IMG/VR virus record: IMGVR_UViG_3300046387_000975
Span: 1 to 48,233 of that record
Length of the DNA: 48,233 bases
Strand: one strand, 5' to 3'
Origin: a virus
Shown here: piece by piece, positions 1,087 to 48,233 of the stretch
How the letters are laid out: each line of letters begins with the position of its first letter
Numbering within the stretch: the stretch's first letter is position 1
Translations under genes and position numbers: made by a program
The notes under the pieces: generated by a model
What the model saw: only the letters and a program-made list of their open reading frames with translations
What the model was told of the DNA's origin: nothing
Database searches by the model: none

Positions 1087-1102
1087 ATGAAAGTTTTTTA
1101 TT

Positions 1103-3450: not shown

Positions 3451-3462
3451 AGGAAACAAATT

Positions 3463-5614: not shown

Positions 5615-5615
5615 A

Positions 5616-6266: not shown

Positions 6267-6897
6267 CCAAGCATTCTTAACTGGCTGCGATGAAAATAAT
6301 GCCTGGATGCTTCCATGGTTTGTGGAAAACTATAAGAAACATAATTCAACTCCTTTAGTTTTTGCTAATTTTGGTGTAAGTCAAAACACATTAAAATATA
6401 TAAAAAATAATTTTCATGCTGTTATTGATATGAGTAAAACAAAAGAAAGAGGCTGGTTTAAAAAGCCAAGAGCGATGTTATACTCACCTTCGATTAAGAC
6501 TGTATGGCTTGATACTGATTGTCAAATTTGTGATAATATTGAATCAGTATTTAATTTACTTAAACCTAATAAGCTAGCAATGGTTGAAGATAAGCCATGG
6601 ACAAAACGGCGGCAAGAAGTATGGCACAATTCAGGCGTAGTGGGAATTATAGATAAGCCTATAATACTTCATCAATGGTGTCAAGAAGTGCACGATAACC
6701 CGAACGTAGGTGATCAAGAAGTGTTACATAATATGCTTAATCCTATTACAAAGTTAAGTCATATCGAAGATTTACCAAACGAATATAATGTCCTTCGGAT
6801 ACAAGTTGAGTTAGATGGATATACAGGTAAAAAGAAGATTGTACATTGGACTGGAGCTAAAGGTAAGGATAAGATTAGGAGTATGATGAATGTCTAA
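6250..6897 (+). CDS. GT8-like glycosyltransferase, 215 aa
   Basis: The core shows LTGCDENN at the start, a long helix, a VWLDTDCQI strand with DxD at about D88/D90, and a HNSGVVGI segment near residue 142 typical of GT8-like folds. A C-terminal VHWTGAKGKDK contributes a histidine and lysine that commonly contact the sugar nucleotide phosphates. A GGAGAAG ribosome site 6 bases before GTG 6250 decides this start; the upstream in-frame ATGs (6211, 6220, 6235) have no such site. It overlaps the preceding gene by 17 bases. Target unknown. Confidence 0.65.
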   Translation: MSKKYNQAFLTGCDENNAWMLPWFVENYKKHNSTPLVFANFGVSQNTLKYIKNNFHAVIDMSKTKERGWFKKPRAMLYSPSIKTVWLDTDCQICDNIESVFNLLKPNKLAMVEDKPWTKRRQEVWHNSGVVGIIDKPIILHQWCQEVHDNPNVGDQEVLHNMLNPITKLSHIEDLPNEYNVLRIQVELDGYTGKKKIVHWTGAKGKDKIRSMMNV

Positions 6898-7498
6898 AGT
6901 TGTGCACATTGTTGGTAATGGTGATCAGGCCGTTTTATATCAGAAAGCCGAAAGAAAAGGCCTAAAGATATGCTGTAATCTTCCACCCTTTGCTGTGCCT
7001 AACACATATGCATCGGTTATTGTGGACTTTAAATTTATGAAAGCAATGACTGAAGGTAGTATTGTATTGCCTGGTGATTGGATTCTAGGAATGCGTCCTA
7101 AGATTTGGATGGATAAGCATCCTAACTACTACACAAAAGTAGCACATCAAGTAAAAGAATTTTATACTCCTCTTCCTAAATATGCTGGTAACTATACTAA
7201 CTTTAACTGTGGTCATGTTGCCGTACATTATGCAGCAAGTAAGCTAAAGGCAGATAGGATTCACATGTATGGATTTGATTCTATCTTTGACTTTAACCTT
7301 AGAAGCTATTCAGACCTGGTACTTAATTCTGACAGAGAGAATATGAATAATCATAGACTGTCTAGTAATTGGAGACCAATTTGGACAGCGATGTTTAAGG
7401 AGTTTGAGAATACGGAATTTATTCTTCATCATGTACACGGTGACTTTAAGATTCCTATTTCAAAAAACGTAAGAGCACAAATTTATCCTAAAAAGTAA
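6890..7498 (+). CDS. Putative sialyltransferase/DUF115-like protein, 202 aa
   Basis: The opening VVHIVGNGDQ strand-loop, a mid-protein cysteine and NCGHVAVHYAASKL helix (near residue 105) followed by RIHMYGFDSI resemble the layout of small bacterial sialyltransferase-like and DUF115-like enzymes, where GNG binds the nucleotide and the 'YGFD' strand lies near the active site. This is a pattern judgement, not a firm family assignment. AGGAG lies 9 bases before the ATG, and the gene overlaps its neighbour by 8 bases. It is the last gene of the glycan operon; no hairpin terminator is visible after it. Confidence 0.45.
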   Translation: MSKVVHIVGNGDQAVLYQKAERKGLKICCNLPPFAVPNTYASVIVDFKFMKAMTEGSIVLPGDWILGMRPKIWMDKHPNYYTKVAHQVKEFYTPLPKYAGNYTNFNCGHVAVHYAASKLKADRIHMYGFDSIFDFNLRSYSDLVLNSDRENMNNHRLSSNWRPIWTAMFKEFENTEFILHHVHGDFKIPISKNVRAQIYPKK

Positions 7499-7507
7499 AA
7501 ATAACTG

Positions 7508-19685: not shown

Positions 19686-19693
19686 TATTTATA
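19686..19693 (-). promoter_or_regulatory. Late promoter box TATAAATA overlapping the gp4 stop codon
   Basis: Exact TATAAATA on the minus strand; its TAA is the stop codon of gp4. The predicted start coincides with the ATG at 19680, giving little or no leader. Confidence 0.55.
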
Positions 19694-20192
19694 TCTTTTT
19701 CTTAGACTTTTTACGATACGGCTTCATAGGTTTTAGAGGTTTTAGTTTACCTGGTACAGGTTTAGTTAATAGTTTCATTTCCTGTAGAGTATGCTCTGTC
19801 CATATTTGAAACTCCCACCCTCTATCTCTTGCATATTCATTTGCTGCTTCCCACTTATTCATATTCTTTACATAAGTCAAACCTTCATTAATATATTTTT
19901 TAGTTCTTCTCTGACCAGTAGGAGGTTTAGTTTCTTTGTCTGGTTTAATTTCTACTAATATAGTTTTTTCTTTCATTACAATTTTAAGATCTACAAAGTA
20001 ACGATGGTATTTTTTATCAACATCATAGTAATATGGTATTACAACTTCTTCTGAGGACCATCCTTTTACAGCAGGATTTGCATCACACCACTGAAATGCA
20101 GCACGTTCCCATAAAGAACGATAAACTACTGCACTTGGATCTCCTAAATACTTCTTAGGATTCTTAACTTGATATCTGCCTGAATATGCCAT
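19689..20192 (-). CDS. 4: Head completion protein gp4, 167 aa
   Basis: It closely follows T4 gp4: start MAYSGRYQVKNPKKYLGDPS, then VYRSLWERAAFQWCD (residues 23-37), GWSSEEVVIPYYY (44-56), and YFVDLKIVM...TILVEIKPDKE (66-86). The last part is the PD-(D/E)xK nuclease-like core, with D68, E82 and K84 as the likely catalytic set. RRTKKYINEGLTYVKN and a very basic tail follow. T4 gp4 (also called gp50/gp65) completes the head before tail joining. It is the first gene of the minus-strand run and is divergent from gp48, with no obvious late box of its own. Confidence 0.9.
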   Translation of the reverse strand: MAYSGRYQVKNPKKYLGDPSAVVYRSLWERAAFQWCDANPAVKGWSSEEVVIPYYYDVDKKYHRYFVDLKIVMKEKTILVEIKPDKETKPPTGQRRTKKYINEGLTYVKNMNKWEAANEYARDRGWEFQIWTEHTLQEMKLLTKPVPGKLKPLKPMKPYRKKSKKKI

Positions 20193-33805: not shown

Positions 33806-36800
33806 ATGGCAACTACGATCACCAGTTCAACCTTTCCTAATACCTATAAGGATGATTACTTAGATAGTGATAATTATCATAAGATCCTCTTTAATAGTGG
33901 TGTTGCTCTTCAAGCAAGAGAATTAACGCAGCTACAGACTATTATCCAAAATCAAATTAAAAGATTTGGTGATAATATCTTTTTGGAAGGTGCTGTCGTA
34001 AAACCAGGTGGTGCAAACTTAAACTCTAAGTATGAGTTTATTAAGCTGAACACTAGTGTCTATAGTCTTCCTGGAACACCATCTAGTCTCGTAGGTACAT
34101 CATTTACTGGCCAATCGTCAGGTGTTGTTGCAAAGGTTTTAGAAGTAGTAGCGGCTGCGGGTTCAGACCCTGCTACACTGTATGTACAATATACTTCTAC
34201 ACTTGCCTCAGCATCAACAACTTCTGATCCTATTCGTATGAATGCCGGTGAAACAATGGATAATGGTAGTACGACCTTAGTTGTACAAACTACAAATACT
34301 ATAGATGATCCAGCGACCGGTACTGGTTCCCGTTTTTCTATTGGTGAAGGTATTTACTATGCAAATGGTAATTTTATATTCGTTGAAACGCAATCAAAAA
34401 TAATTTCGAAATACTCAGATGCACCAAATGCTGAGTGTGGGTTTAAGATTATTGAAGAAGTTGTGACGACAGCTGACGATACTGCACTATTTGATAATCA
34501 AGGTGTTACGCCAAACCTGTCAGCACCTGGTGCTGATCGTTATCGTATTCGTCTTCAAATTGCCACAAAAGCAGAAGTTGCTTCTGATGAAAATTTTGTA
34601 CACGTTGCAAATATCGTAAATGGTCGTATTCAGTCTGCAGTCAAGACAATTGATTCTTATAATGTGCCTAATGAATTAATTGCAAAAAGAATATCTGAAA
34701 ATTCAGGCGATTACATAGTAGAACCATTTACAATTAATTTCGAAACCGACTCTGCAACTGGATTTTTAAATCTTAAAATTTCTGACGGCATAGCGGTTGT
34801 TGAAGGATATAGAGCTGCAAAATATACCCCTACAAGTCTTAGAGTTGAAAAGGCTACAACAACAACTACAATTAATAACGACGTAACAGCAGCTAATTAT
34901 GGCAATTATGTGTTAGTAGACCCAGCCGAAGTCAAAGGCCTTCCTAACATTAATGAACTTGAGTTAGTAAATCTTAGAACAGTTGCTGATTATGGAGGAT
35001 CTACTATTGGTACCGCTCGAGTGAGAGGCGTAGCTGAAGACGGAGCAAACTATAGATATTACCTCTTTGATATTGTAATGAATACTGGTCAAGCATTTAG
35101 AGATGTTAAAAGTCTTGGTACCACTAGTACAAACTATTTTAATCCTACGCTTGAGTTAGGTAAAGCTGTACTTAAAGAAACCGGAAGTACGGTTCTTTTC
35201 CCGCTTCCTCATGATAGACCTAGCACTATTGCAGATATTTCTTTAGTAACCCAGCGAAGATTCACCACTACTACTAATAGCTCTGGACAAACAACAATTA
35301 CAGTTTCAGCCAGTGGTGAAGATTTTACGAATACCGGAGATTGGGTATTTGCTAAAGCAAATGACGCAATTATTACTACTTCAGTTAGTGTAACTGGTGC
35401 TGGTACACAGTCTGCTACAATCAGTGGATTACCTACTAGTGTTACAAACTTAGAAATATTGGCTTATGTTAATAAAGGCAATGGCATTGTTAGAGCTAAA
35501 ACATTAACCGATATGTCTAGATCTATTACGCCTGATGCAAGTGGAAATCTTCCTTTAGGTAAAGCTGACATTTATAGTATTACGGAAATTGTAGATGATG
35601 CCGATAGCTCAATTAACTATTCTGGTAGGTATTCACTCGACAGAGGACAAAGAGATAATTTTTATGCTTTAGGTAAGTTAACACTAAACGGTGGTATGAC
35701 AGCGCCGAGTGGATTAGTTCATGTTAAATACAAGTATTTTGAGCACGGCGTTAACGGAGATTTCTTTGCAGTTAATTCTTATACTGGTCAAGTAGAATAC
35801 GGTGATATTCCTTCACACACTTTATCAAATGGAAGAACTGTTAATTTAAGATCTGTACTAGATTTTAGATCTGTACAAGACTCTGATGGTAATTATTCTG
35901 GAATATCAACTGGAGGAAGAGTAGTAGAATTACCGCAGCCTTCAGACTTAATTAGATTTGATGGTACATATTATCAATCTTCATCTGCGCGGCTGGTAAT
36001 TGATACTGAAGGAGTCATTCAATACATTAAAGGACCCACAGGATTTAATCCTTCATTACCAGAAAAGCCAGAAAGAACTTTAGGACTATATAATATTACT
36101 CTAAATCCTAATACTATTAGTCCAAGAGATGTTAATATTAATAAGATTGAAAACAAACGATTTACAATGGCTGATATCGCACGACTTGAAGATCGAGTTG
36201 ATAAGATTGAAGAACTTACATCACTTAGTTTACTAGAATTAGATACAAATAATTTCGAAGTACTTGATTCGGCTGGAGTTAACAGAACTAAGTCTGGCGT
36301 TGTTGTAGATAATTTCTCTACACAAGCTTTGTCTGATACTAGATCAAGAGAATATAGAGCATCAATTAATCCTTTGCGACAGATAATGCGCCCTTGGTTT
36401 TATGAAGATAATATTAAATTAATGTATGATTCAGCTGCTTCTACAAATACAATTAAAAAAGGTGATAATATATATCTTAAATATACTGATGAAGTTTATA
36501 TGGATCAAAGCTTAGCTAGTCAATCTGTTGTTATTAATCCGTTTCAAGTGGTAGTTCATGAAGGCATAATTACACTTTCTCCTGGCTCTGATGAATGGAG
36601 AGACACCGAATATATTGCAAATAAAATTATTGATGGTGGCTCTAAATTAGACACTAATCAGGCATTACTTTGGGATAATTGGACATGGAATTGGGGCGGT
36701 ACTCCTATTGAAGAATTAAAGGTAGGATCTGCAACAAACTCTAAAGTTACTAATAGCGGTAATGTAACAACTACAGTAGTAAATAAGGTGGTGTCAGATG

Positions 36801-37561
36801 AAGTTGTACAAAAACTCGTAGGTGAGCGGGTGGTAAATGTTGCACTACTACCATTTATGAGATCTCGTAAAATTTTCTTCAAGGGTGAAGGCTTAAGACC
36901 TAACTCAAAGGTATTTGCATTTTTTGATGGACAACCAGTTGCAAGTTGGGTAAGAACCGAATCATTTACATATCATTCAGATAATGCAGTTGATTATGGC
37001 AACTTACACAGGAATGCTACTGGGCATCCTGAAACAGCAAGTACTCTTGAAACTGATGCCAACGGAATGGTTGAAGGATCGTTTTTTATTCCTCGAGGAC
37101 CAACTCTTAGCTTTAAAACGGGCACTAGAGAATTTAAGATTTTAGACATAAGTGTACCTAATGATAATGATTCATTAAGTATTGCTCGAGCGCTTTATTC
37201 ATCAGTAGGTCACTTAGATACAAAACAAAAAGATTATTTATCAACAAGAATGTTAACAGTCGAAGGCACCAGCTCTACTATTCACAGACCTTATTACAGT
37301 AGCGGTGACGGTAATTCTAATTACATAGATCAAGCTGGAAATCGTCATTTTGCTACATTACAAGACTGGATAAATGCCATGAATTCCCCGGGGCATCAGC
37401 CAGTAAGCGATCCACACCATGACTTTGCCGTTTCTCCAAATAGCAACATTAATGTAGGTACTGGTGGTAGAACAGATGCTGAAACAAACGCTGGAGCAGG
37501 GAATTACAGTTCTTATGATGACGTGGGTCATCATCCGGATCAAAATAACAGCCCGTTCTAG
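33806..37561 (+). CDS. Large virion protein, DUF4815 type, 1251 aa
   Basis: The opening (NYHKILFNSGVALQARELTQLQTIIQNQIKRFGD, residues 24-58) is characteristic of DUF4815 virion proteins of marine phages. It contains a SGVVAKVLEV module (about 107-160), many beta-rich stretches, a predicted coiled coil near 785-810 (MADIARLEDRVDKIEEL), a YFEHGVNGDFFAVNSY block near 650 and a His-rich tail (DPHHDFAV, GHHPDQNN). It occupies the place of gp9/gp10 in T4, at the outer baseplate. The next protein appears to carry the domain that often follows this one in the same chain. Confidence 0.72.
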   Translation: MATTITSSTFPNTYKDDYLDSDNYHKILFNSGVALQARELTQLQTIIQNQIKRFGDNIFLEGAVVKPGGANLNSKYEFIKLNTSVYSLPGTPSSLVGTSFTGQSSGVVAKVLEVVAAAGSDPATLYVQYTSTLASASTTSDPIRMNAGETMDNGSTTLVVQTTNTIDDPATGTGSRFSIGEGIYYANGNFIFVETQSKIISKYSDAPNAECGFKIIEEVVTTADDTALFDNQGVTPNLSAPGADRYRIRLQIATKAEVASDENFVHVANIVNGRIQSAVKTIDSYNVPNELIAKRISENSGDYIVEPFTINFETDSATGFLNLKISDGIAVVEGYRAAKYTPTSLRVEKATTTTTINNDVTAANYGNYVLVDPAEVKGLPNINELELVNLRTVADYGGSTIGTARVRGVAEDGANYRYYLFDIVMNTGQAFRDVKSLGTTSTNYFNPTLELGKAVLKETGSTVLFPLPHDRPSTIADISLVTQRRFTTTTNSSGQTTITVSASGEDFTNTGDWVFAKANDAIITTSVSVTGAGTQSATISGLPTSVTNLEILAYVNKGNGIVRAKTLTDMSRSITPDASGNLPLGKADIYSITEIVDDADSSINYSGRYSLDRGQRDNFYALGKLTLNGGMTAPSGLVHVKYKYFEHGVNGDFFAVNSYTGQVEYGDIPSHTLSNGRTVNLRSVLDFRSVQDSDGNYSGISTGGRVVELPQPSDLIRFDGTYYQSSSARLVIDTEGVIQYIKGPTGFNPSLPEKPERTLGLYNITLNPNTISPRDVNINKIENKRFTMADIARLEDRVDKIEELTSLSLLELDTNNFEVLDSAGVNRTKSGVVVDNFSTQALSDTRSREYRASINPLRQIMRPWFYEDNIKLMYDSAASTNTIKKGDNIYLKYTDEVYMDQSLASQSVVINPFQVVVHEGIITLSPGSDEWRDTEYIANKIIDGGSKLDTNQALLWDNWTWNWGGTPIEELKVGSATNSKVTNSGNVTTTVVNKVVSDEVVQKLVGERVVNVALLPFMRSRKIFFKGEGLRPNSKVFAFFDGQPVASWVRTESFTYHSDNAVDYGNLHRNATGHPETASTLETDANGMVEGSFFIPRGPTLSFKTGTREFKILDISVPNDNDSLSIARALYSSVGHLDTKQKDYLSTRMLTVEGTSSTIHRPYYSSGDGNSNYIDQAGNRHFATLQDWINAMNSPGHQPVSDPHHDFAVSPNSNINVGTGGRTDAETNAGAGNYSSYDDVGHHPDQNNSPF

Positions 37562-37587
37562 AAGGCGCGCGCTAAGGAGCATTAATA

Positions 37588-39156
37588 ATGGCAACCTCAT
37601 TAGGTTACAAACTAAATAAACATCCAATTGCACAATCGTTTTTTGTGGATAAAATATCTGGTATATACGTTACAAAAATTGATTTGTTTTTTGCGCAAAA
37701 AGATGTAAATTTTCCAGTTACTTTACAGCTAAGGCCGATGGATAATGGATATCCTTCAGCTACAGAAATTATTCCGGGATCACAAGTAGTAACTGCCGGA
37801 TCAAGTGTCAACACTTCTACCGATGCTACATCTGCTACTACGTTTACTTTTCCTGAGCCAGTATACTTAAAAGGCCTAACAGATTATGCTATAGTATTGA
37901 CTGCAGATTCGATTGATTATGAAGTTTACATTGCTCAAACAAATGAATTCTTAGTAGGATCTACTGAAAAAAGAGTAGATCGGCAACCCACATCCGGATC
38001 ATTGTTTTATTCTCAAAATAATGTTACCTTTACTGCTGCACAAAACCAAGATTTAACATTCAAAATACATAAAGCTAGATTCTTACATTCAACTGGAACT
38101 GCAGTTCTTAATAATACAGATGTACCTAAGTATTTACTGACTGAAAACGCTTTGACATTTACTCAAGGCAGCAGTACCGTAAGAGTAAAACACGTTAATT
38201 GTGGTTTACATGTAGGAGAAGACATTACTATTGCAGGTGTAGATTCGGGTGGATTTGCCGGCATTGATGAATCACATTTAAATGGTACTCACACAGTTAC
38301 TGCTGTTGATTGGACTGGTTATTCGTTTACTGCAGGTGCTACGGCTACGGCAACAGCTGATGCAGGAAATAATGCAATTACTGCCACTACAAATATTCCA
38401 TATACCATTATTTATCCTCATGTACAAACTCTCATACCTAATAATACATCTATTAGCGCTGGTTTAAAGGCAACAACAGGTAAATCATTTGCTGGAACAG
38501 AGACCGCGTTTCAAAAAAGCACATCATTTGCAAATGTTCAATTAAATTCAAATAATTTAGCAGCTGTGCCATATGTAGTTGCTAATGCTGGAAGTGAGGC
38601 ATCAGAGTTAGGGTCTAATCAAAAATCATTAGATCTTTCCCTTAATATGTCTTCATCAGATAGTAACGTTTCTCCTATGATTGACATGCAGAGAGTATCA
38701 GCAACTCTTGTTAATAATCTTGTAGATAGACCAGCTTCAGCAGCCACATCTGGATTTAATTCACAATTTAATTTTGTTGATGAAACTTCTGCTTCAGGTG
38801 GATCTTCAGCCGCAAAGCACGTTTCTACACCTGTTACTTTACAACAAGATGCCGTGGGTCTTAAGATCATCTTAACTGCAAATAGACCATCAACCACAGA
38901 CTTTCAAGTTTATTATAGAACAGCTACAGATGATCAAAATTTGTATGAGCAAGATTATAGTTTGTTATTAGAGGAAACAAATAATCCTACTGATGAGTCT
39001 CCGAGAATGTTTAGAGAATATCGATATCTTGCTGGTGGGCTTGGCGGAGACTTACCTGCCTTTACTCAATTCCAAACTAAGATTGTACTTAGATCTACAA
39101 ATGCTGCTAAAGTTCCAGTTATAAAAGATTTAAGAGCAATTGCAATGAGCGTATAA
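37588..39156 (+). CDS. Virion structural protein following DUF4815, 522 aa
   Basis: The N-terminal ~180 residues (PIAQSFFVDKISGIYVTKIDLFF, then FTFPEPVYLKGLTDYAIVLTADS) match a beta-sandwich domain that, from memory, is fused to the C-terminus of DUF4815-type proteins in other phages. An insert of about 80 residues with HVNCGLHVGEDITIAGVDSG follows (near 205-290), then a C-terminal domain with YRYLAGGLGGDLPAFTQF. AAGGAG gives a strong ribosome site. Probably an outer baseplate or fibre-attachment protein. Coupled by TAATG to the next. Confidence 0.68.
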   Translation: MATSLGYKLNKHPIAQSFFVDKISGIYVTKIDLFFAQKDVNFPVTLQLRPMDNGYPSATEIIPGSQVVTAGSSVNTSTDATSATTFTFPEPVYLKGLTDYAIVLTADSIDYEVYIAQTNEFLVGSTEKRVDRQPTSGSLFYSQNNVTFTAAQNQDLTFKIHKARFLHSTGTAVLNNTDVPKYLLTENALTFTQGSSTVRVKHVNCGLHVGEDITIAGVDSGGFAGIDESHLNGTHTVTAVDWTGYSFTAGATATATADAGNNAITATTNIPYTIIYPHVQTLIPNNTSISAGLKATTGKSFAGTETAFQKSTSFANVQLNSNNLAAVPYVVANAGSEASELGSNQKSLDLSLNMSSSDSNVSPMIDMQRVSATLVNNLVDRPASAATSGFNSQFNFVDETSASGGSSAAKHVSTPVTLQQDAVGLKIILTANRPSTTDFQVYYRTATDDQNLYEQDYSLLLEETNNPTDESPRMFREYRYLAGGLGGDLPAFTQFQTKIVLRSTNAAKVPVIKDLRAIAMSV

Positions 39157-39359
39157 TGAGTCGATTAAAGGTTGAAGGGCATACTAATCTAGTACGAGAT
39201 ACAAATTCAGGTGCTATACTGAATATAAATAAATCAGAAGTAGAAATTGCAAGAGCACGAAAAGAAGCTCGTAGAAAAAAAGATAAAGAGTTCGAAGATC
39301 TAAAAAATGAAGTTAGTGAAATAAAAAATCTGCTTCATAAACTTATAGAGAAGATGTAA
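39156..39359 (+). CDS. Small coiled-coil virion-type protein, 67 aa
   Basis: A short protein whose first 25 residues (GHTNLVRDTNSGAILNINKSE) resemble a peptide found in marine phage structural loci, followed by a highly charged helix (residues 30-66; EARRKKDKEFEDLKNEVSEIKN) likely to form a coiled coil. Both ends overlap neighbours by TAATG, so its amount is tied to them. A linker or assembly role is likely. Confidence 0.62.
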   Translation: MSRLKVEGHTNLVRDTNSGAILNINKSEVEIARARKEARRKKDKEFEDLKNEVSEIKNLLHKLIEKM

Positions 39360-39997
39360 TGGCAAAGACAGTTGTAAATTTATCAGACCAAATGGCGGTG
39401 TTTGTTCAAAAAACAAACCTAATTTCAACGCATGTCGGTGATCTAGTCACTCTTACAACAACACATGATTCTGACTTAGTTCGAGCCATTAATGAACTTG
39501 ACAGCGCGCAAGGCACTATAGCATCTTTATCTACTACAGATAAGTCCAGTTTAGTTGCTGCTGTTAATGAAGTAAAAGGCGAAGTAACTACTGTTAGTTC
39601 TGGATTTTCTGGATTTTTAAGATCAAATATAAATGATGTAGTAACTGCAGGTTCGATTCGCTTTGACGACGCAGTTCCGTTAGTGATTGGTTCTGATAGT
39701 GACTTTACTATTACTCATAGTGGTGGTACAACAACTGCAGCTGGCAATATTACATTTACTGGTGCTATTACTGGTAATGCTTCAACAGCATCTCAATTAC
39801 AAACTGCTCGTACTATTTCATTAATTGGTGATATAACCGGATCTGTATCATTTGATGGATCACAAAATGTAAGTATTAGTACTACATCTGGTGCAGCTAC
39901 AAACATTACTTCATCTAGATTTAGTTCTCCAGTTACTCTAAATATTATTAATTCTGCAGGTACTACAGTAAAGACTTTGCGCGGCCCAGGGAGTTAA
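39359..39997 (+). CDS. Fibre-like structural protein, 212 aa
   Basis: The N-terminal half is helical and low in cysteine (DLVTLTTTHDSDLVRAINELDSAQG, DKSSLVAAVNEVKGEV), two repeated helix pairs typical of fibre coiled-coil stalks. The second half has the common fibre motif ASQLQTARTISLIGDITGSVSFDGSQN (about 145-172). It ends in a short beta strand. Probably a tail-fibre or baseplate spike part. Start overlaps the previous stop; the next gene follows after three bases. Confidence 0.65.
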   Translation: MAKTVVNLSDQMAVFVQKTNLISTHVGDLVTLTTTHDSDLVRAINELDSAQGTIASLSTTDKSSLVAAVNEVKGEVTTVSSGFSGFLRSNINDVVTAGSIRFDDAVPLVIGSDSDFTITHSGGTTTAAGNITFTGAITGNASTASQLQTARTISLIGDITGSVSFDGSQNVSISTTSGAATNITSSRFSSPVTLNIINSAGTTVKTLRGPGS

Positions 39998-40000
39998 TCC

Positions 40001-40978
40001 ATGGCAGTGAGAACTCCAGTATATTATGATGGTACTGACATTCGTGAAGTATCTTCATCCGATATAACTAAAATAAAAAATAGATGTGTGTATTTATGGG
40101 GTGGTTCTCGCTCTGTAAACTTATCCGTAGTCGGGTCTTCTGGCAATTTGCGTAGAATGGTTGATCATAGAGACACAGCTAGTGGTGTCACTAATCACGT
40201 ATCGTCGTTTCAAACTCCAGGTAGCACGACCGACAGAGGCGCGTCTACAACATATGATAGAATCAACCAATCGACTGCGGATGGTGGAGCAAGCGATCCT
40301 GGAGATGCTAGTAATAGAAAATATCCATTATTTCTAAATAGCGGGAATTTACAAGCTATGTCAAAACAAGATATGCTTGATACATTTATTAGCCCCGCAA
40401 TTGATATTTTAGTTGATGGAAATGATAGAGATGGCACTTATAGAATCCACACAGGCACATCATTAGGTAGCCATACATTAATTAGTAGTACACCGGTTTT
40501 TATCGACCAAAGATTTAATACTGCTTTTCACGGCTTAGGAGCAGGTGGATTGACGGCTGCTGAATTATTACCAGCTTCTACTGATCAACCTACAACAATT
40601 ACAAATTATTATTTACACAGAACTAATCAAGGAGTTTATGATGGCACTCCTACATTTAACATACCACTTTTCCTTAGAACAGATGATGACATTCAAACAT
40701 ATACGCAATCCGCTATTGATTCTATATTATCTGACTTAATTGATTGGGCCACCTCAAGTCAAACTGGTTATAGAATTAGATATGAAGTACAAGGTTCAGG
40801 AGTTGATGGTGCGTCGTATGCTGGTAATCAAAGAGGAAGTGCTATGACAGATACTACGTTAAATAGCTCTGCTGTTGTAAATGATCAAGACGGTGGTGAC
40901 ACATATCGTTCGCAAAGATTTCCTGCAGGTAGTTCAGAAACCGAAACAACTTACACTTTAAAAATTCGGAAAGAATAA
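40001..40978 (+). CDS. Virion structural protein, 325 aa
   Basis: GGGAG lies 9 bases before the ATG at 40001. The start (RTPVYYDGTDIREVSSSDI) resembles the anchoring peptide of phage virion proteins. The rest is polar and beta-rich, with a recurring Asp/Gly/Ser composition (DGGASDPGDASN, DGNDRDGTYRIH) and a C-terminal TYTLKIRKE strand. No catalytic motif or membrane segment. Its position after fibre genes suggests a fibre or baseplate-rim component; no family name can be given. Confidence 0.6.
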   Translation: MAVRTPVYYDGTDIREVSSSDITKIKNRCVYLWGGSRSVNLSVVGSSGNLRRMVDHRDTASGVTNHVSSFQTPGSTTDRGASTTYDRINQSTADGGASDPGDASNRKYPLFLNSGNLQAMSKQDMLDTFISPAIDILVDGNDRDGTYRIHTGTSLGSHTLISSTPVFIDQRFNTAFHGLGAGGLTAAELLPASTDQPTTITNYYLHRTNQGVYDGTPTFNIPLFLRTDDDIQTYTQSAIDSILSDLIDWATSSQTGYRIRYEVQGSGVDGASYAGNQRGSAMTDTTLNSSAVVNDQDGGDTYRSQRFPAGSSETETTYTLKIRKE

Positions 40979-40979
40979 A

Positions 40980-41444
40980 ATGATTAATCATACATTTGTA
41001 AATGCTAGATTTATTGATACTAAACATACAGTATGCGAAGCACTATGGAAAGATAATGATGACGACACGATCATTAGATCGGAAAACGTGTTACGTGAAG
41101 ATGGCAATACTCTATGGGAAAATTTATTAAAAGAAACTACTTTAGAGCAAATTCTTCGTAATACATTTGATTATAATAAAGGTGAAGAAGAAGCCTTTAA
41201 AAAAATGTTTAAGAAAATGTATGATAAAGAAGAAAGCCAACCTAAAAGCGATTCCTTAAGTTTTGAAAAATTATTATCTAATGATTTAAATCAAGAAGAA
41301 TTGTTTAAGTTAAAGATTCTAATATTTGAAAATGAAGCGATTAAAGAATCAAAAGATAGAAGTTTAAAGACAAAAATTAGAAAATCGAAGGATGTGTTGG
41401 AAATTATTAATCTGTATTATAATGCCACTCAAACTTCTTCGTAA
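40980..41444 (+). CDS. Hypothetical protein at the end of the fibre operon, 154 aa
   Basis: Not recognised. The N-terminal 45 residues are beta-like (FVNARFIDTKHTVCEALWKD), the rest is acidic and helical, with lysine/glutamate-rich stretches (EEEAFKKMFKKMYDKEES). It starts one base after the previous stop, so it is in the same operon. Its final 38 bases are also the end of the convergent glycosyltransferase gene on the minus strand. Could be a fibre chaperone by position and charge, a common place for one, but this is a guess. Confidence 0.55.
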   Translation: MINHTFVNARFIDTKHTVCEALWKDNDDDTIIRSENVLREDGNTLWENLLKETTLEQILRNTFDYNKGEEEAFKKMFKKMYDKEESQPKSDSLSFEKLLSNDLNQEELFKLKILIFENEAIKESKDRSLKTKIRKSKDVLEIINLYYNATQTSS

Positions 41445-42291
41445 TAAAGTGGGTCATTTTTCTTTCTAATTTTAAATACTCTTCTCGAGTTTCGGTTCTG
41501 TGATCTAGTATTTGGTGCCATGGACCATTAATATTTACCGCAGGAACTTCATTCTTTGCTAGCAAATATGAATATATTGGTTCATTATTATAGTCCATTG
41601 TTTCTTTAATGTTGTCTGTATACATACTATCAGGATCATTTTTAAATAAAGTAATATTATTTAGAATTTCTTCTAAGTTTTCAAAATAATTTAATTGTTG
41701 AATATGTTTTCTAGTTGCTCCAATAATTCCTGTATTTGTAATAGGAACTCGAGGACTCATAAAATCATAACTGCATAAAGCATGTGCAATAAAGTATTTG
41801 TTAATCATAGAGCGCAAATATAATTTTTGATTGCTCCAACTACTAATATACTTTAAGGCTTCTTCGTGATAATCTTCTAAGTGCACGTGTATGCCACTGT
41901 CTAAATTATGTACATCAAAAAAGTTTTCTTTCGTTTCAAAAAGAACATCAAAGTCTACGTATAAGACCTCATCATATTTTTCAGCTAATCTTTCCATTTT
42001 CCACAATTTATAGAAGTTAACTACATGATATTCGTTTTGTTCAGTACAATACGAATACATAAGATCTCTAAACTGTTTATAGTCATTTCCGTTAGTGTAA
42101 TGAAAGTAATCACAGCCCTGTAAATCAGCATACACTTGTTTGTTTTCTATTAAGCGTTCGCTATATTCATTCATTACTCGTTTTGTTTTGGTCGATCTAT
42201 CTTCAGGTTCCCAAGCCCAGTAAGGACCAAGTTGTTTATCTAGTTTCTCTTCTTCTAAATCAATATGGATGGAAAAAATAACTTGTTTCAT
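41407..42291 (-). CDS. GT-A-fold glycosyltransferase-like protein, 294 aa
   Basis: It opens MKQVIFSIHI and has the strand VLYVDFDVLF with DxD at D113/D115. An NTGIIGAT segment near residue 185 and HQILDH near 267 fit GT8/GT-A enzymes. The arrangement resembles the transferases at 1103, 2785 and 3463, suggesting a shared ancestor. It is the last gene of a five-gene minus-strand cassette and the base composition is even more AT-rich than its structural neighbours. Its 3' end overlaps the plus-strand hypothetical gene by 38 bases. Target unknown. Confidence 0.68.
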   Translation of the reverse strand: MKQVIFSIHIDLEEEKLDKQLGPYWAWEPEDRSTKTKRVMNEYSERLIENKQVYADLQGCDYFHYTNGNDYKQFRDLMYSYCTEQNEYHVVNFYKLWKMERLAEKYDEVLYVDFDVLFETKENFFDVHNLDSGIHVHLEDYHEEALKYISSWSNQKLYLRSMINKYFIAHALCSYDFMSPRVPITNTGIIGATRKHIQQLNYFENLEEILNNITLFKNDPDSMYTDNIKETMDYNNEPIYSYLLAKNEVPAVNINGPWHQILDHRTETREEYLKLERKMTHFITKKFEWHYNTD

Positions 42292-42926
42292 TTACCTATT
42301 ACCATAAATCTGTTAAAATCACCCAAATCTAATTTTAAAGTTTTTGCTACATACCATAGAGGAATATAACTTTCAAACTCTTCTTCGGTATTAGAGCAAT
42401 TTATATGAGTAGGGTGGTCAAAGTAATCGTTTGTTTGTAAACACAACCAACATTCTTTATTCTTCTTTGCTGCTAACTCAATCCAAAAATCTTTTTCGAT
42501 ATGTTCACACGAAGTAGAAATAATAGCACTATACTCAGAAAAGTTTAAATTATCTGTTGCATCTACTGTTTCAAAACTTATATCATAATCATAAAATAAT
42601 CTCCAAGCAAAATCTTCACATGTTGGATCTACGTCTATAGAAGTAATATTAAAAGTTTTGTTTGGAAATTCTTGTCTTAAAAAATATGAAAGTAAGCCGT
42701 ACCAACCTCCTATAATAAGAATATTGCCGTCAGTAAAGTTATTACCATTTTTAATAGATCTATAAAGAGGTGAAAAATGTTCTACTAGCCATTTTTTAGA
42801 ATCAATCTGTTTAGAATCTAAAGAATGAATAATGTCTTTAATGCGAAAAAAATCGTTTTTCTCGTACATTGTATTATCATATATTTCTTCAATTAATTTA
42901 AGACTTCTTTGTAAAATATGTTCCAT
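42288..42926 (-). CDS. SAM-dependent methyltransferase-like protein, 212 aa
   Basis: Motif I is ILIIGGWYGLLS (residues 69-80), with the acidic motif II strand SIDVDPTCED (97-106) and motif IV-like ISTSCEHIEKDFW (near 135). These are class I SAM-binding features; the E in SCEHI and later NDYFDHPTH residues could be catalytic. It lies between two glycosyltransferases, with a 4-base overlap to the following one and a 29-base overlap with the preceding one. The methyl acceptor may be a sugar or peptide. Confidence 0.68.
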   Translation of the reverse strand: MEHILQRSLKLIEEIYDNTMYEKNDFFRIKDIIHSLDSKQIDSKKWLVEHFSPLYRSIKNGNNFTDGNILIIGGWYGLLSYFLRQEFPNKTFNITSIDVDPTCEDFAWRLFYDYDISFETVDATDNLNFSEYSAIISTSCEHIEKDFWIELAAKKNKECWLCLQTNDYFDHPTHINCSNTEEEFESYIPLWYVAKTLKLDLGDFNRFMVIGK

Positions 42927-43494
42927 AATCTAATTCTTCGTAAGTTGTAATAGGTGCAATTTTATCTGGCTGGTATTTATATGACTGAATCATATTCGTA
43001 TTAAACGTATTATAATTAAATTCTTCGTGAACTATAAATCTGTCAATACCTTTGTACTTTCTCATAAAGTAATCTTTATTACTTAAAAAATAATTCCATA
43101 TATGTTTTTGTTCGTTGCCTATCCAAGTTATAACTTGGCTATTAATAGTTACATCATAGTTGTGATTTATGGGAATGTTATTTTTCCAATCGCAATTTAC
43201 AACAGTCAATCCATTCCACGTTAAATATTGAAGAGGATTACTATTAATTACAGTATCGATATCAAAAAATAAATTTTTACCCGGTAAATCTAAATCAAAT
43301 AAAGCTAGTTTATTCCACCATTTTTTAAGTACAGGCTTTGTTTTAATATTAATGTAAGGCATGCTTAAGTTAGAAGGATCTTCTGTATAACAATAATAAT
43401 TGGCATAAGGAATATGTTCCTTTAATTCATTGTACAGATTATTTACTTGTTTAGAAGTATATTTACTTCCATGTTTAACAAAGAGAATATTCAT
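42898..43494 (-). CDS. Glycosyltransferase-like protein, 198 aa
   Basis: A short GT-A-like protein: MNILFVKHG start, KPVLKKWWNKLALFD near residue 53-67 and the DxD strand LFFDIDTVIN (D78/D80). A C-terminal part with HEEFNYNTFNTNMI may bind the acceptor. Smaller than the other transferases here, it may lack part of the acceptor lobe. It starts four bases after the kinase-like gene ends, and its last 29 bases overlap the methyltransferase start. Substrate unknown. Confidence 0.62.
   Translation of the reverse strand: MNILFVKHGSKYTSKQVNNLYNELKEHIPYANYYCYTEDPSNLSMPYINIKTKPVLKKWWNKLALFDLDLPGKNLFFDIDTVINSNPLQYLTWNGLTVVNCDWKNNIPINHNYDVTINSQVITWIGNEQKHIWNYFLSNKDYFMRKYKGIDRFIVHEEFNYNTFNTNMIQSYKYQPDKIAPITTYEELDYGTYFTKKS
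42974..42981 (-). promoter_or_regulatory. Possible late promoter box inside a glycosyltransferase gene
   Basis: Exact TATAAATA on the minus strand, 47 bases before the methyltransferase start (42926), inside the upstream gene. It could give extra late transcription of the last two cassette genes, or be a chance match. Confidence 0.3.
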
Positions 43495-43498
43495 CGAT

Positions 43499-44026
43499 TT
43501 ACTCTAAATGTATACAATGATTATGGAATTGTGTAATAAGAGTTCCGTATAAAGAAATAGAACTAAACTTCCTAATGGGATTTAGTCTAACAGAATCTAT
43601 ATCAATTGCCTTAAAATCTCCTGATTCAGTAACTATTATGTTAGTTAAATTTAAATCTTCATGAAACATAATCTTTCCTTGCTTTGAAAGTTCAATGTTG
43701 TATTCTAAAAAATTTCCAATTAAATCATGACATTTTTTTATGTAATGCATTACTTCACTATATTCTTGATTTTGTTTAGACATAGCTTGAAGAACTAGTT
43801 CTTGCAGCAAGGATCCTTCGATTTTTTCCATGACACAGGTATGAATTCCATCTTTTATGTTCATTTCGTAGATTTCCGGAAGTATATTATATTTAGAATT
43901 AAAATCATCATAATACAGCAGCCAGCTAGGATCTAGTATGCTGTGTCTGATAAACTTGTATTTTTTAATTATTGTATTACCATTATCATACACTTCACAA
44001 TCTTTGCCACTTTTAATTAATTTCAT
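43499..44026 (-). CDS. Protein-kinase-like phosphotransferase, 175 aa
   Basis: The catalytic loop FHEDLNLTNIIV carries H122, D124 and N129 (HxDxxxxN), followed by AIDIDSV with D142/D144 in the place of the DFG metal site. A TIIKKYKF strand near 18-25 could supply the ATP-binding lysine, and CVMEKIEG is the hinge. This is the compact kinase fold of LPS-sugar kinases and aminoglycoside-phosphotransferase-like proteins, much reduced (175 residues). It overlaps the radical SAM gene by 14 bases. It may phosphorylate a sugar or a peptide; which is unknown. Confidence 0.72.
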   Translation of the reverse strand: MKLIKSGKDCEVYDNGNTIIKKYKFIRHSILDPSWLLYYDDFNSKYNILPEIYEMNIKDGIHTCVMEKIEGSLLQELVLQAMSKQNQEYSEVMHYIKKCHDLIGNFLEYNIELSKQGKIMFHEDLNLTNIIVTESGDFKAIDIDSVRLNPIRKFSSISLYGTLITQFHNHCIHLE

Positions 44027-45176
44027 TAAACCACTCTTTTTCTATGTCTTTCAACTTAGGAACAATATCAAATAATTTAAAACCTCGGTAATCATCTATA
44101 CCAAATAGTCGCATAAGTACTTGAGATTTTATTACAGCATCAGGCTCTTCATATTCCAAATTATAGATTACATCTAAATCTATTTTATCTTCATTACCAT
44201 ATTTAATAAAGTATTCGTTTAATTTATCTTCCAACATTTCATAAGGTATATACTTGGGATTACATGCTAAGGGATGCAACACTTTGTTGTTAAGAGTAAT
44301 CCACCTTACATATTCTTTATCTTTAAAATAATCAATGATGTCGTCAAGATTAAAAAAGTTATAAATTGAGACACATGTATTGATTGTAATTTTTACGTTT
44401 GTTTCTTTATAAAACTTTTCCATAGTAGAAATAGTTTTTTCCCAAGGACTACTTCTAATCCAATGGTATAATTTATTAGTGCCGTCTATACTTGCTGACA
44501 TTTCTAATCTATCACCAAATCTTTTAAGTATTTCCATAAACTTATCAGGTATGGTTTGAAAGTTAGATACAATAACAACTGTACAGCGATTGTTAACTTG
44601 TGATAGTTTATCTAGTAACATAATATTATTTTTATCAGCAAATGGTTCTCCGCCCTTTAATTCAAATCTATCCAAGCTAGGCATTGCTTCAATAATTTTA
44701 TTTAAATTATCGTCAGTTAATTTAATAATAGGCATTACCGATTGGCCAAGATGTTTAGCAAGTTCATTCCATTTAGAGCTTAACCCAGGAAAACAAGTAG
44801 AACAATTTTGATTACATATGTTACTTGAAGTTACTTCTAAAGCTCTTATAGGAGCTTTTTTACCTTCAAGCATCAATTTTCTATCACGAATTAAGTTAGG
44901 TGAATGTATTTTATTTTTTACAACTATTCTATGGGAATCTTCATCTGGTTCATTTTGACAGTCACGACAATTTTTACCGTTTCTCCAAGCGTCTGACTGA
45001 AACATTTCTCTATATTGCTCGAATTCTTCAGTGTTGTAGTAATCTGTAAGATTATCTACTTCATTAATAGATGCAAGAGGGAAATCACCAGACATACAGC
45101 AAAGAGCAATATTTCCTCGAGGGTTAACAACAAACCCCATATATGGAGCCTTACACAAATTTTTTTCGTCAAACAT
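44013..45176 (-). CDS. Radical SAM protein with N-terminal twitch/SPASM-like domain, 387 aa
   Basis: Cysteines C121, C125 and C128 (CNQNCSTC) form the CxxxCxxC site for the SAM-cleaving iron-sulfur cluster; GGEP (175-178) follows. Residues 1-75 hold C8, C26, C27, C70 and C73 in a SPASM/twitch arrangement (CKAP, GNIALCC, NCRDC), placed before the core, while in most SPASM enzymes it comes after. I recall such 'N-terminal twitch' proteins from phage and metagenomes without known substrate. SPASM/twitch enzymes usually modify peptides. It is the first gene of the minus-strand cassette; no ribosome site is obvious. Confidence 0.82.
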   Translation of the reverse strand: MFDEKNLCKAPYMGFVVNPRGNIALCCMSGDFPLASINEVDNLTDYYNTEEFEQYREMFQSDAWRNGKNCRDCQNEPDEDSHRIVVKNKIHSPNLIRDRKLMLEGKKAPIRALEVTSSNICNQNCSTCFPGLSSKWNELAKHLGQSVMPIIKLTDDNLNKIIEAMPSLDRFELKGGEPFADKNNIMLLDKLSQVNNRCTVVIVSNFQTIPDKFMEILKRFGDRLEMSASIDGTNKLYHWIRSSPWEKTISTMEKFYKETNVKITINTCVSIYNFFNLDDIIDYFKDKEYVRWITLNNKVLHPLACNPKYIPYEMLEDKLNEYFIKYGNEDKIDLDVIYNLEYEEPDAVIKSQVLMRLFGIDDYRGFKLFDIVPKLKDIEKEWFNEIN

Positions 45177-45213: not shown

Positions 45214-45221
45214 TATAAATA
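45214..45221 (+). promoter_or_regulatory. Tandem late promoter box TATAAATA (first)
   Basis: Exact TATAAATA, 53 bases before the ATG at 45275, in the divergent gap between the minus-strand cassette and the fibre genes. Followed 24 bases later by a second identical box. Confidence 0.72.
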
Positions 45222-45237
45222 GCTACAACAGACTTTT

Positions 45238-45245
45238 TATAAATA
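45238..45245 (+). promoter_or_regulatory. Tandem late promoter box TATAAATA (second)
   Basis: Second exact TATAAATA, 29 bases before ATG 45275. Two boxes in tandem suggest strong late expression of the fibre operon and restart transcription after the inserted cassette. Confidence 0.72.
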
Positions 45246-45274: not shown

Positions 45275-45625
45275 ATGGCTAGATACGAAGAACTCACAAT
45301 AGACAAGGGCTCAGACGTCGCCTTCGAGCTACATCTCAATAATGATGATGGAAGCATTAAAGACTTGTCTGGACACACTGGCTCAGCAAAAATGAAAAAG
45401 AGCTTTAATAGCGACAGTGACAACACTTATGCTTTTACTGCTATTATAGCTGACCCCGCAACACAAGGTATACTTACCTTAACTATGACTAATACTCTTA
45501 CCGATACAATAAAAGCTGGTCGTTATGTATTCGATACCGAAATTTCTTTTAATGATAGCGATGGAAATCCTATTGTAGAAAGAATTCTTGAAGGACGAAT
45601 TCACGTTACTCCATCTGTAACTTAA
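45275..45625 (+). CDS. Small structural protein with Ig-like fold, 116 aa
   Basis: Beta-sandwich pattern with strands such as VAFELHLNNDDGS (residues 14-26), SAKMKKSF, GILTLTMTN and AGRYVFDTEISFND (near 80-93), ending ILEGRIHVTP. This is the layout of small phage baseplate/fibre Ig-like or BppU N-terminal-like domains. It is first behind two tandem late boxes and precedes a large fibre gene, so it may anchor that fibre. Weak ribosome site. Confidence 0.65.
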   Translation: MARYEELTIDKGSDVAFELHLNNDDGSIKDLSGHTGSAKMKKSFNSDSDNTYAFTAIIADPATQGILTLTMTNTLTDTIKAGRYVFDTEISFNDSDGNPIVERILEGRIHVTPSVT

Positions 45626-45636
45626 TAGGATAAAAA

Positions 45637-48233
45637 ATGGCTAGAAAAACTGTTATCAAAAAAATTGTTGTCGGACGTCCTATTAAAAGTGTTGACGCAA
45701 CATCAGTCGGAAATGCCAGCCAATTAGCTAGTAATCCTCCATCATATTATTTAGACTATACAAATTTTACTAATACACCAAATGTATTAGACTCTGCTGA
45801 AATTAACCAATTAATCGCAACTGGTGGTGTAGATTCTTCAGAGATCCAAGCTATTATTGATTCTAACTATATCAATAATCTTTTAGACACTACTAAATTT
45901 CTTGATTCGGCTGAAGCGGTTGCGCTAATCGATTCAGATTATATTCTTGCTCGCGCATCTAATATTCAAAATCTAAGAGATAGCGGTGGAGATACAGTCT
46001 TTACCGGTAACTTAGTTCCTGCCACTGATAGCGGATCATCATTAGGCACAGCGAGTAAGAGATTTAAAGATCTATATCTATCTGGTACCACACTTTACAT
46101 TGGTGATGCAGCAATTGGTACTGACAATAATGTTGTCAAAGTATTTTCATTAGATGCAAATGGAGCAATACAGTCTACTTTAGGTAAAATAGCACTATTA
46201 GATTCCTCTGTATCCTCTAGTAACATATTCGACTTTGTTGACTCGGCATATGTTAATGCAAGATTAGATACAACCTTATTTCTTGATTCTGCAGAAACCA
46301 TATCACTAGTTGATTCTAACTATGTAGCTGCACGAACATTCACACAGTCAGATATTGAAGCGTTTGCAAGAGCTGTATCTCTTGATTCTGCAGAAACTAT
46401 TGCATTAATTGATTCTGCATATGTAAATGCTAGACTTGATACGACTGCGTTTTTAGATTCGGCCGAGACTATTGCATTAATTGATTCTGCATACGTAGCT
46501 GCAAGAACTTGGACACAAACTCAAATTGAGCAGTTTGCAAGTAATATTCTACTTGACTCTGCTGAAGCTGCTCGTCTAATTGACTCTGCTGTTAATGGCG
46601 TAATTGACGGAGCTCCTGGTGCGCTTGATACTCTGAATGAGTTAGCAGCTGCGCTTAACGACGACTCAAATGCTTTTAATACTCTTAATAATTTAATTGC
46701 TACTAAATTAACAGCTGCAGACTTTGATACTCGGTTTGATAGCGCATTAGGTACTAAAACAACTGATGATGTAACTGAAGGATCTACTAATCTTTATTAT
46801 ACAAATACTCGTGTAAGTACACTTATTGATTCAGATTATATTATAGCTAGACAAGCACCTGGTACAGATTCTGCACAAGTTGAAGCTATTGCAGCTGCTC
46901 TTATTGATTCTGACTATGTTGCAGCAAGACAAGCAGCAGGGGTTCTTAAATTAGGTAATGTAACTGATGGTGCATTAACAGACGGTGCTATTCAAACATT
47001 AACATCTGATACAAAGATTGTAGATGCTATTGATGAATTAAACGAAGCAATGCTGAACGTAAGTAATAATACATTTGTAAGAGGTAATACATTTACAGGT
47101 TCGCCTCTTGCTGGTGGTGAAGGATTAAGTGTTACACTCAATATTTCAGTAGATGGAAATGCTAATAGATTTGATGTAGATTGGGGAGATAGTAGTCAAG
47201 ACAATAATATTACTGATAGCACTCCTACTCATACGTATTCATCTAATACTGGATCACCATTTACAGTTACTGTAAGAGCATACAATACTAGCGGATCTGG
47301 AGTTGGATCAGAAGCATCATTTGTGAGAACTGGATATATTATTATTTACACAGCAGATCCAGTGGCAAACTATAATGTATATGCAGCTCCAACAGGTGGT
47401 TCACCTATCTCATTCTGGGAGGATGGTGATACTGTATACTTTGAAAATAGTACAACTAACACAACTATGGCTGATGTCACATATCGCTGGACATGGGGTG
47501 ATGGTTCATCAGACAATATTATCGATAGCGACAATGCGGCAGGTGGTGTAACTGGTTCAAGGATTGCTCATACGTTTACAGCATCAACAAATACAGATGT
47601 CCAACGGACAACTCAGTTAGAATTAACAGCACACACAACTGCAGATCCTACTGTTATTTCTGGTGGTGTTGATACAAGTGATACCTTTGAAATTTATGAT
47701 GATATGCCTACGCCTAGTTATGTTGCACAAGCAGTTCGTGTAGTAAATGGTACTAATCATCAATTTTTATTAAACAGCACTGGTTTAACAGGTTTAGGAT
47801 CACACTCCACATTCGGAAATCAAATCAAACATTATTTTGGAGATGGTACGACAACAACTGCAAATGTAGGATCCGGTCAAGATGGAGACATTGGTGATTA
47901 TGTAGCTAAATCATTCCCACTTACGTCAAGTAATCAAGCAAATGGTGTCACACGACAAATAGATAATTACGTCGAAGTTATTACTAATCACGGCTCAAGT
48001 CCATTTACTTCTGGTACATTATCAGTATTTACAGAGCCAAAAGTAGTTGCTGGAGTAACTGCAAGAGCTCCGACTGTAAGTGATGGTAGTAATGATGATG
48101 ATAAAACGGTATATATTAGTTCGGTTGGCGGCGCATTTACCGACTTAAATGGTGCTGATAGAACCCGTATATCAGCAATTGTATCATGTCAAAATTCCGG
48201 AAATAACTCTATTAATTTTAACAATAGTGAAAA
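45637..48233 (+). CDS. Large repeat-rich tail fibre with PKD-like domains (3' end missing)
   Basis: The frame from ATG 45637 stays open to the window end (865 codons). After a basic start (MARKTVIKKIVVGRP) and a short fibre-like DTVFTGNLVPATDSGSSLG region come repeats of an LDSAE-xx-LIDS-xYV-AR unit, a shaft-like array. A second fibre element (GALDTLNELAAALNDD) follows. From about residue 495 PKD-like beta domains appear, with FDVDWGDSS (near 510), YRWTWGDGSS (near 620) and HYFGDGT (near 735). PKD domains mediate surface or carbohydrate binding. A GGATAAAAA stretch precedes the ATG. Probably the host-recognition fibre. Confidence 0.8.
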   Translation, partial: MARKTVIKKIVVGRPIKSVDATSVGNASQLASNPPSYYLDYTNFTNTPNVLDSAEINQLIATGGVDSSEIQAIIDSNYINNLLDTTKFLDSAEAVALIDSDYILARASNIQNLRDSGGDTVFTGNLVPATDSGSSLGTASKRFKDLYLSGTTLYIGDAAIGTDNNVVKVFSLDANGAIQSTLGKIALLDSSVSSSNIFDFVDSAYVNARLDTTLFLDSAETISLVDSNYVAARTFTQSDIEAFARAVSLDSAETIALIDSAYVNARLDTTAFLDSAETIALIDSAYVAARTWTQTQIEQFASNILLDSAEAARLIDSAVNGVIDGAPGALDTLNELAAALNDDSNAFNTLNNLIATKLTAADFDTRFDSALGTKTTDDVTEGSTNLYYTNTRVSTLIDSDYIIARQAPGTDSAQVEAIAAALIDSDYVAARQAAGVLKLGNVTDGALTDGAIQTLTSDTKIVDAIDELNEAMLNVSNNTFVRGNTFTGSPLAGGEGLSVTLNISVDGNANRFDVDWGDSSQDNNITDSTPTHTYSSNTGSPFTVTVRAYNTSGSGVGSEASFVRTGYIIIYTADPVANYNVYAAPTGGSPISFWEDGDTVYFENSTTNTTMADVTYRWTWGDGSSDNIIDSDNAAGGVTGSRIAHTFTASTNTDVQRTTQLELTAHTTADPTVISGGVDTSDTFEIYDDMPTPSYVAQAVRVVNGTNHQFLLNSTGLTGLGSHSTFGNQIKHYFGDGTTTTANVGSGQDGDIGDYVAKSFPLTSSNQANGVTRQIDNYVEVITNHGSSPFTSGTLSVFTEPKVVAGVTARAPTVSDGSNDDDKTVYISSVGGAFTDLNGADRTRISAIVSCQNSGNNSINFNNSE
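45880..46930 (+). repeat. Tandem LDSAE/LIDS protein-repeat array in the fibre gene
   Basis: About seven imperfect copies of a unit of roughly 22 to 36 residues (FLDSAETIALIDSAYV-AR and variants, some separated by WTQTQIEQFAS-like spacers). At DNA level, pieces around 46380, 46450 and 46550 are nearly identical (CTGCAGAAACTATTGCATTA and relatives). Such arrays can change copy number by recombination, which would alter shaft length. Confidence 0.75.

Follow-up and report, generated by a model that had tools for sequence, protein, structure and literature searches.

We identified a gene module that links tail proteins to sugar-active enzymes in a T4-like phage represented by IMG/VR virus record IMGVR_UViG_3300046387_000975 (48,233 bases; this whole stretch of DNA is referred to as the window). 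In the window, the module includes a cassette of five minus-strand genes (41407–45176), which encode a radical S-adenosylmethionine enzyme (rSAM), a kinase-like protein, two putative glycosyltransferases (GT2 and GT1) and a methyltransferase-like protein (MT), together with two plus-strand genes, cl1 and cl2. A preliminary description of this DNA had put the rSAM and the kinase-like protein forward as the defining pair. Comparison across viral loci showed that the five-gene set is an instance of a conserved, swappable and widespread module, and that the core of this module is cl1, cl2 and the GT and MT enzymes rather than the rSAM-kinase pair; this constant core had not been singled out before. 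We propose, with a probability of about 0.5, that the cassette represents one form of a mobile module for decorating tail proteins, which places a glycan on a virion tail protein. The genes of the module in the window are as follows.

40001–40978, plus strand: cl1, a protein of 325 aa encoded at the tail locus and containing three internal repeats (family alignment, AlphaFold2 model)
40980–41444, plus strand: cl2, a 154-aa protein sited between cl1 and the enzymes (AlphaFold2 model)
41407–42291, minus strand: GT1, a putative GT8-type glycosyltransferase with DxD at residues 113–115
42288–42926, minus strand: MT, a protein resembling class I methyltransferases, in which WYG, TSxEH and HIN motifs are conserved
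42898–43494, minus strand: GT2, a phage glycosyltransferase-like protein with DxD at residues 78–80
43499–44026, minus strand: a minimal kinase-like protein with HxDxxxxN plus IDxDS
44013–45176, minus strand: the rSAM, with a permuted N-terminal twitch domain (NF033640 match)

Clustering of the neighbouring genes at 84 viral rSAM loci revealed a recurring block of cl1, cl2, one or more rSAMs, GT2, MT and GT1. Coupling within this block was determined from several starting genes. For cl1 and GT1, the loci of the best 80 of 528 and the best 80 of 401 relatives were used, respectively, and the coupling fractions apply to that range. Starting from cl1, enzymes were counted within 8 kb at 54 non-redundant loci with at least 5 kb of downstream sequence. 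cl2 and a glycosyltransferase were present at all 54, MT at 52, GT2 at 51, GT1 at 47, an rSAM at 42 and the kinase-like gene at two. Starting from GT1 (GT8-selected loci of at least 14 kb), both cl1 and cl2 were found at 36 of 37 loci and an rSAM at 31 of 37. This coupling to cl1 agrees with the earlier claim that the enzymes are tied as a set to a tail protein. When loci were selected by the backbone gene cl24, GT1 was present at 2/2 cl1-positive and 0/14 cl1-negative loci (Fisher 0.008; small sample), and GT1 and MT are missing from the tail loci of two phages that share this backbone but have no cl1, HTVC008M and C48C1. One cl1-negative locus (L288) has cl2, GT2, MT and two rSAMs. The distance from cl1 to GT1 is no more than 8 kb in 6/6 long records (140–221 kb). 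In the 221-kb relative, VrlC is located at 44–49.5 kb, GT1 at 94.3–95.9 kb and cl1 at 100.5–102.8 kb; the module is about 50 kb away from VrlC and the baseplate genes and still intact, and is therefore not only a feature of a tail hotspot. In some viruses, the interval from cl1 to cl2 is occupied by enzyme genes on the tail strand: in Mosig and others by an epimerase, elsewhere by GT2-MT-rSAM.

The pairing of rSAM and kinase and a constant linkage of the rSAM to tail genes, both anticipated in the preliminary description, did not hold across loci. The kinase-like gene was found in three distinct viruses, a single-sequence scan of viral contigs for its relatives found none, and the rSAM-kinase pair was rejected as the core because the kinase is rare. 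From the rSAM side, cl1 was present at 16 of 46 non-redundant loci, and the other 30, some of which are short contigs, were without cl1 in the stretch fetched. Since only 16 of the 46 have cl1, the rSAM family is broader than the module, and strict tail linkage of the rSAM was rejected as well, its loci also being found away from cl1. Within the module, rSAMs are frequent but exchangeable.

The five ORFs (open reading frames) of the cassette run head to tail, overlapping or abutting, and interrupt a tail-fibre operon whose genes on either side are on the plus strand. The GC content of the cassette is 28.9%, compared to 36.8% upstream (37588–40978) and 37.2% downstream (45275–48231), and the abutting cl2 gene is likewise AT-rich (27.1% GC). 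This arrangement had been described correctly, as had the tandem late boxes with which the plus-strand fibre genes restart:

45214–45245, plus strand: two TATAAATA late boxes (at 45214 and 45238)
45275–45625, plus strand: cl26, a fibre-assembly-like gene flanking the cassette (phrog_1084, 4e-18; phrog_3304 'L-shaped tail fiber protein assembly', 2e-10)

The genes upstream match baseplate wedge (phrog_438) and VrlC-type (phrog_358) families; the latter match covers 33806–39156, and the annotated VrlC of Mosig matches phrog_358 too. Among the closest named relatives of the window baseplate gene are C48C1 and two Pelagibacter phages, Mosig and HTVC008M; the three are assigned to the Kyanoviridae. 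The 3′ end of the window falls inside a fibre gene. A nucleotide search with the cassette across 50,697 phage records gave no match. That the five-gene set is not a chance assembly follows from a sister virus (L032) with the same gene order and a second rSAM. Elsewhere in the window, a TnsA-like endonuclease domain protein (PF08722, 9e-18) is encoded near tail genes (19689–20192, minus strand).

The glycosyltransferase assignments rest on family members and motifs. Eight of 20 GT1 family members match Pfam Glyco_transf_8 (best 8.5e-9), the window GT1 itself being without a direct Pfam match, and GT2 matches phrog_1962 'glycosyltransferase' (4e-11). In family alignments the DxD motif is invariant in both families, as expected from the two DxD transferases recognized previously. 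In four loci (L033, L040, L051, L055) GT1 is 570–600 aa long and combines two GT8-type domains in one protein, the counterpart of the GT1-GT1 gene pairs seen in other viruses. For MT, assigned earlier as a SAM methyltransferase, the motifs are conserved, relatedness to Methyltransf_25/11 is weak and restricted to some members (three of 20 match Methyltransf_25 weakly), and the family profile matches a spermidine synthase and a methyltransferase in the PDB. MT is regarded here as a putative, divergent methyltransferase-like family. The kinase-like protein matches NCBIfam LanKC (2e-5; 23 bits against a cut-off of 575) and Kdo kinase (1.4e-3; 17.7 against 142) far below the cut-offs, and its profile matches protein kinases and LanKC in the PDB. 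The HxDxxxxN motif noticed before is kept in 3/3 aligned relatives, and the protein is predicted to be a minimal kinase with this catalytic-loop motif.

The rSAM matches NCBIfam NF033640 (N_Twi_rSAM) over its full length (residues 5–377) with 193.3 bits against a cut-off of 170, and no difference from this family was found. Its Pfam matches are to Radical_SAM and, in the N-terminal part, to SPASM. NF033640 is defined as "twitch domain-containing radical SAM protein", and the model states no substrate or reaction (NCBIfam). The twitch cysteines are C8, C26, C70 and C73 and the core cysteines C121, C125 and C128. CxxxCxxC is intact in 169/169 viral relatives and all seven cysteines are present in 137/169. 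Both cysteine patterns had been read correctly from the single sequence, and catalytic residues are kept in relatives, here as in the DxD families. The N-terminal domain of the family profile matches the twitch of BtrN from the butirosin pathway (4m7s/4m7t, E 1e-4). BtrN oxidises an amino-cyclitol and holds its auxiliary cluster with four cysteines (PMC9012708), the number also found in the phage enzyme. The similarity is at the profile level only, and the domain order differs: the twitch of BtrN is C-terminal and that of the phage rSAM N-terminal, and the phage enzyme is therefore permuted.

SPASM/twitch enzymes usually modify peptides or proteins, and such a substrate had been considered in the preliminary description. 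The match to the BtrN twitch and the identity of the recurrent neighbours speak against it. Genes that recur as additional members of the cassettes encode an O-carbamoyltransferase, a DegT/StrS sugar aminotransferase, an NAD-dependent epimerase, a nitroreductase and a PP-loop protein, and these neighbours point to sugar chemistry, not peptide maturation. None of the models for maturases of ribosomally synthesized and post-translationally modified peptides (RiPPs) was matched above cut-off by the rSAM (best 38.9 bits against 525). As had been noted, no precursor peptide was seen beside the rSAM, nor was a RiPP recognition element; this holds for ORFs of at least 50 aa, shorter ones not having been searched systematically. 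Judging from these sequence comparisons, the rSAM probably acts on a sugar decoration rather than on protein, and by analogy its reaction would most likely be sugar-carbon oxidation or epimerisation.

N-twitch rSAM relatives in genome contigs (L087–L114) are concentrated in metagenome-assembled genomes (MAGs) of the Bdellovibrio/Bacteriovorax type, often several per locus, and no GT/MT context that explains their function was found in these contigs. Arrays of at least five close rSAM genes, some with MT-like genes, occur in viral and MAG contigs (L075, L081, L084, L111). In Vibrio phage K566 (L004, 4965–10454), the order rSAM, GT-like, rSAM, rSAM, GT-like places N-twitch-like rSAMs beside likely transferases with no cl1 context.

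Comparison of the window with the sister virus L032 separates a constant from a variable part. Identity is 98% for cl1, 96% for cl26 and 91% for GT1, and falls to 61% for GT2, 55% for MT, 31% for the kinase and 34% and 27% for the two distant rSAMs. Different rSAMs are thus compatible with one and the same tail protein, and this single pair of viruses suggests that the rSAM acts on the decoration.

The AlphaFold2 model of cl1 is confident (predicted local distance difference score, pLDDT, 88; predicted template modelling score, pTM, 0.84), and its three repeats are homologous with profile comparison probabilities of 93–97%. A C-terminal motif of the type DYRxQxFPxG contains an invariant tyrosine (Tyr302 in the window protein), and threonines are conserved as well; these residues would be candidate sites for sugars. 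The model gave no fold match in the PDB or BFVD, and cl1 matched no PHROG family. The cl2 model shows a beta-hairpin followed by helices (pLDDT 90, pTM 0.55), and no fold match was found for it. From their position, cl1 would be a virion adhesin and cl2 its assembly partner, conceivably as an assembly chaperone or adaptor, which is a guess. In five loci where VrlC is not nearby (L038, L033, L029, L040, L055), a 62-aa family, cl7, lies directly upstream of cl1; it resembles the C-terminus of the short fibre-like protein encoded at 39359–39997 in the window.

Late boxes are found at seven positions on the plus strand and two on the minus strand of the window. Across relatives, they lie upstream of eight of 27 cassettes on the opposite strand, and five of the boxes sit at exactly −13 (2.4 expected, P 0.001), from which late expression of the cassettes is inferred. 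A published pelagiphage infection transcriptome (PMC12753301) makes no mention of the myophage and cassette terms looked for in it.

A target in the virion is proposed because of the coupling to cl1, the location of the enzymes inside the tail operon, the late boxes and the near absence of membrane proteins (a strong hydrophobic segment in just 4 of 693 cassette proteins by a simple hydropathy test). The GT8-type and GT2-type transferases would build a short glycan, and MT, the kinase-like protein and the permuted-twitch rSAM would tailor its sugars. Attachment of the glycan would take place in the cytoplasm late in infection; its acceptor would be a tail protein of the virion, most probably cl1, with cl2 assisting. 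Swapping of the tailoring enzymes between phages with the tail protein kept constant would give a serotype-like variety on the virion surface. More tentatively, the module may be a dedicated, exchangeable glycosylation system for cl1 as a tail adhesin of new fold, in which permuted-twitch rSAMs edit the sugars and tail-tip chemistry varies with the protein unchanged.

Several points weigh against decoration of the virion. The glycan, its acceptor and the modification itself are proposed from gene content, and the presence of cl1 in the virion is deduced from its position. The loci were sampled by similarity to window genes, and the test selected by the cl24 backbone is small. Divergence of cl1 correlates weakly with that of the enzymes (partial Mantel r 0.25 for GT2, 0.12 for GT1 and 0.07, not significant, for MT). 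The window's own cassette has no upstream late box, only a TATAAT-like element, which speaks for the main alternative, namely that the cassette remodels a host surface polysaccharide (lipopolysaccharide, LPS) and blocks co-infection, cl1 being the matching receptor-binding protein. P22-type phages carry O-antigen modifying genes near the tailspike, and LPS synthesis typically involves GT8 and sugar-nucleotide enzymes. Modification of the host surface is also the published proposal for the GT8 genes of the same island (PMC7029224). The window has an apparent second sugar cluster at 1–7500 with GT25 'LPS biosynthesis' matches. This run of overlapping plus-strand genes has the GT25 matches at 4919–5614 and 5607–6266, a GT8-like gene at 3463–4341 and methyltransferase-like genes at 1861–2460 and 4328–4918 (the latter with a weak rhamnosyl O-methyltransferase match). 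Membrane proteins, among them the flippase and membrane glycosyltransferase of Gtr-type serotype conversion, are nearly absent from the 693 cassette proteins by simple hydropathy, unlike in Gtr-type or O-antigen export systems, a finding with which cytoplasmic modification of the LPS core would be compatible. The placing of enzymes on the tail strand in the interval from cl1 to cl2 and the late boxes before several cassettes, which would be late for exclusion, also count against a host target, and we give this alternative a smaller but real chance.

That the rSAM modifies the tail protein itself, by a RiPP-like crosslink or epimerisation, with the other enzymes acting on the same protein, appears improbable. 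It would suit the frequent action of SPASM/twitch enzymes on peptides, the weak similarities to RiPP maturases and the LanKC kinase and the unspecified substrate of NF033640. It does not readily account for sister viruses with 98%-identical cl1 and yet distant rSAMs in one versus two copies, for 12 of 54 cl1 loci without an rSAM within 8 kb, for the twitch being closest to BtrN, or for the missing precursor peptide, short ORFs not having been searched exhaustively. Slightly less probable still is unrelated cargo at a tail-region recombination hotspot, serving host metabolism or small-molecule synthesis: the region is reported as hypervariable in pelagimyophages (PMC7029224), is AT-rich, and its rSAM families occur elsewhere too, but the coupling of cl1 and GT1 is reciprocal and persists away from the tail operon. 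Hypermodification of phage DNA bases with sugars is very unlikely; some viruses do have glycosyltransferases by which DNA receives diverse glycans (cited in PMC12619734) and thymidylate-synthase-family genes are present in 4/6 records, but these lie outside the cassettes, TET/JBP matches were found in 0/6 records (a search without positive control), and strict coupling to a tail protein is left without a reason.

The earlier suggestion that the system is undescribed did not hold. A 2020 study of pelagimyophages (Zaragoza-Solas et al., 2020; PMC7029224) described this island under the name host recognition cluster (HRC), with GT8 transferases and with two close genomes differing by radical SAM cassettes, so that the existence of such genes in the island is not new. 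The HRC shares with the window a T4-like marine phage background, the site after VrlC between tail genes, GT8 transferases, tail fibres and radical SAM cassettes. It ends at the neck gene gp14; the window itself stops inside a fibre gene. The passages of that report on the island treat it as a variable region for modification of the host O-chain, and they describe no fixed cl1-cl2-GT-MT core, no module away from VrlC and no twitch type for the rSAM. The cultured Pelagibacter phage Mosig EXVC030M (host HTCC1062; MT647606, 60990–71305) carries cl1 (QOI69061.1), cl2, GT2, GT1, MT and rSAMs (annotated MoaA) on the strand opposite to the tail genes; it differs in an additional epimerase, ArnB-like aminotransferase, carbamoyltransferase and nitroreductases, and the kinase was not found in it. 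In mycobacteriophages, glycans on the capsid and tail tube of the virion were shown experimentally (Freeman et al., 2023, as summarized in PMC12619734). The proposal for the window phage is similar in placing glycans on virion proteins and differs in that the system is known from its genes and includes radical SAM tailoring enzymes. New are the fixed core with its reciprocal coupling to cl1, the occurrence of the module outside the tail operon, the permuted twitch resembling that of BtrN, the pattern of a constant adhesin with variable enzymes, and the proposed sugar-editing role of the rSAM.

Were the role of the rSAM confirmed, members of the N-twitch radical SAM family would gain a function; our searches turned up none for this family. 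The availability of Mosig EXVC030M in culture makes the question of virion decoration directly testable, and either outcome bears on the 2020 proposal of host O-chain modification. Should decoration of the virion by the module be confirmed, changes in tail specificity could come from chemistry instead of from protein sequence.

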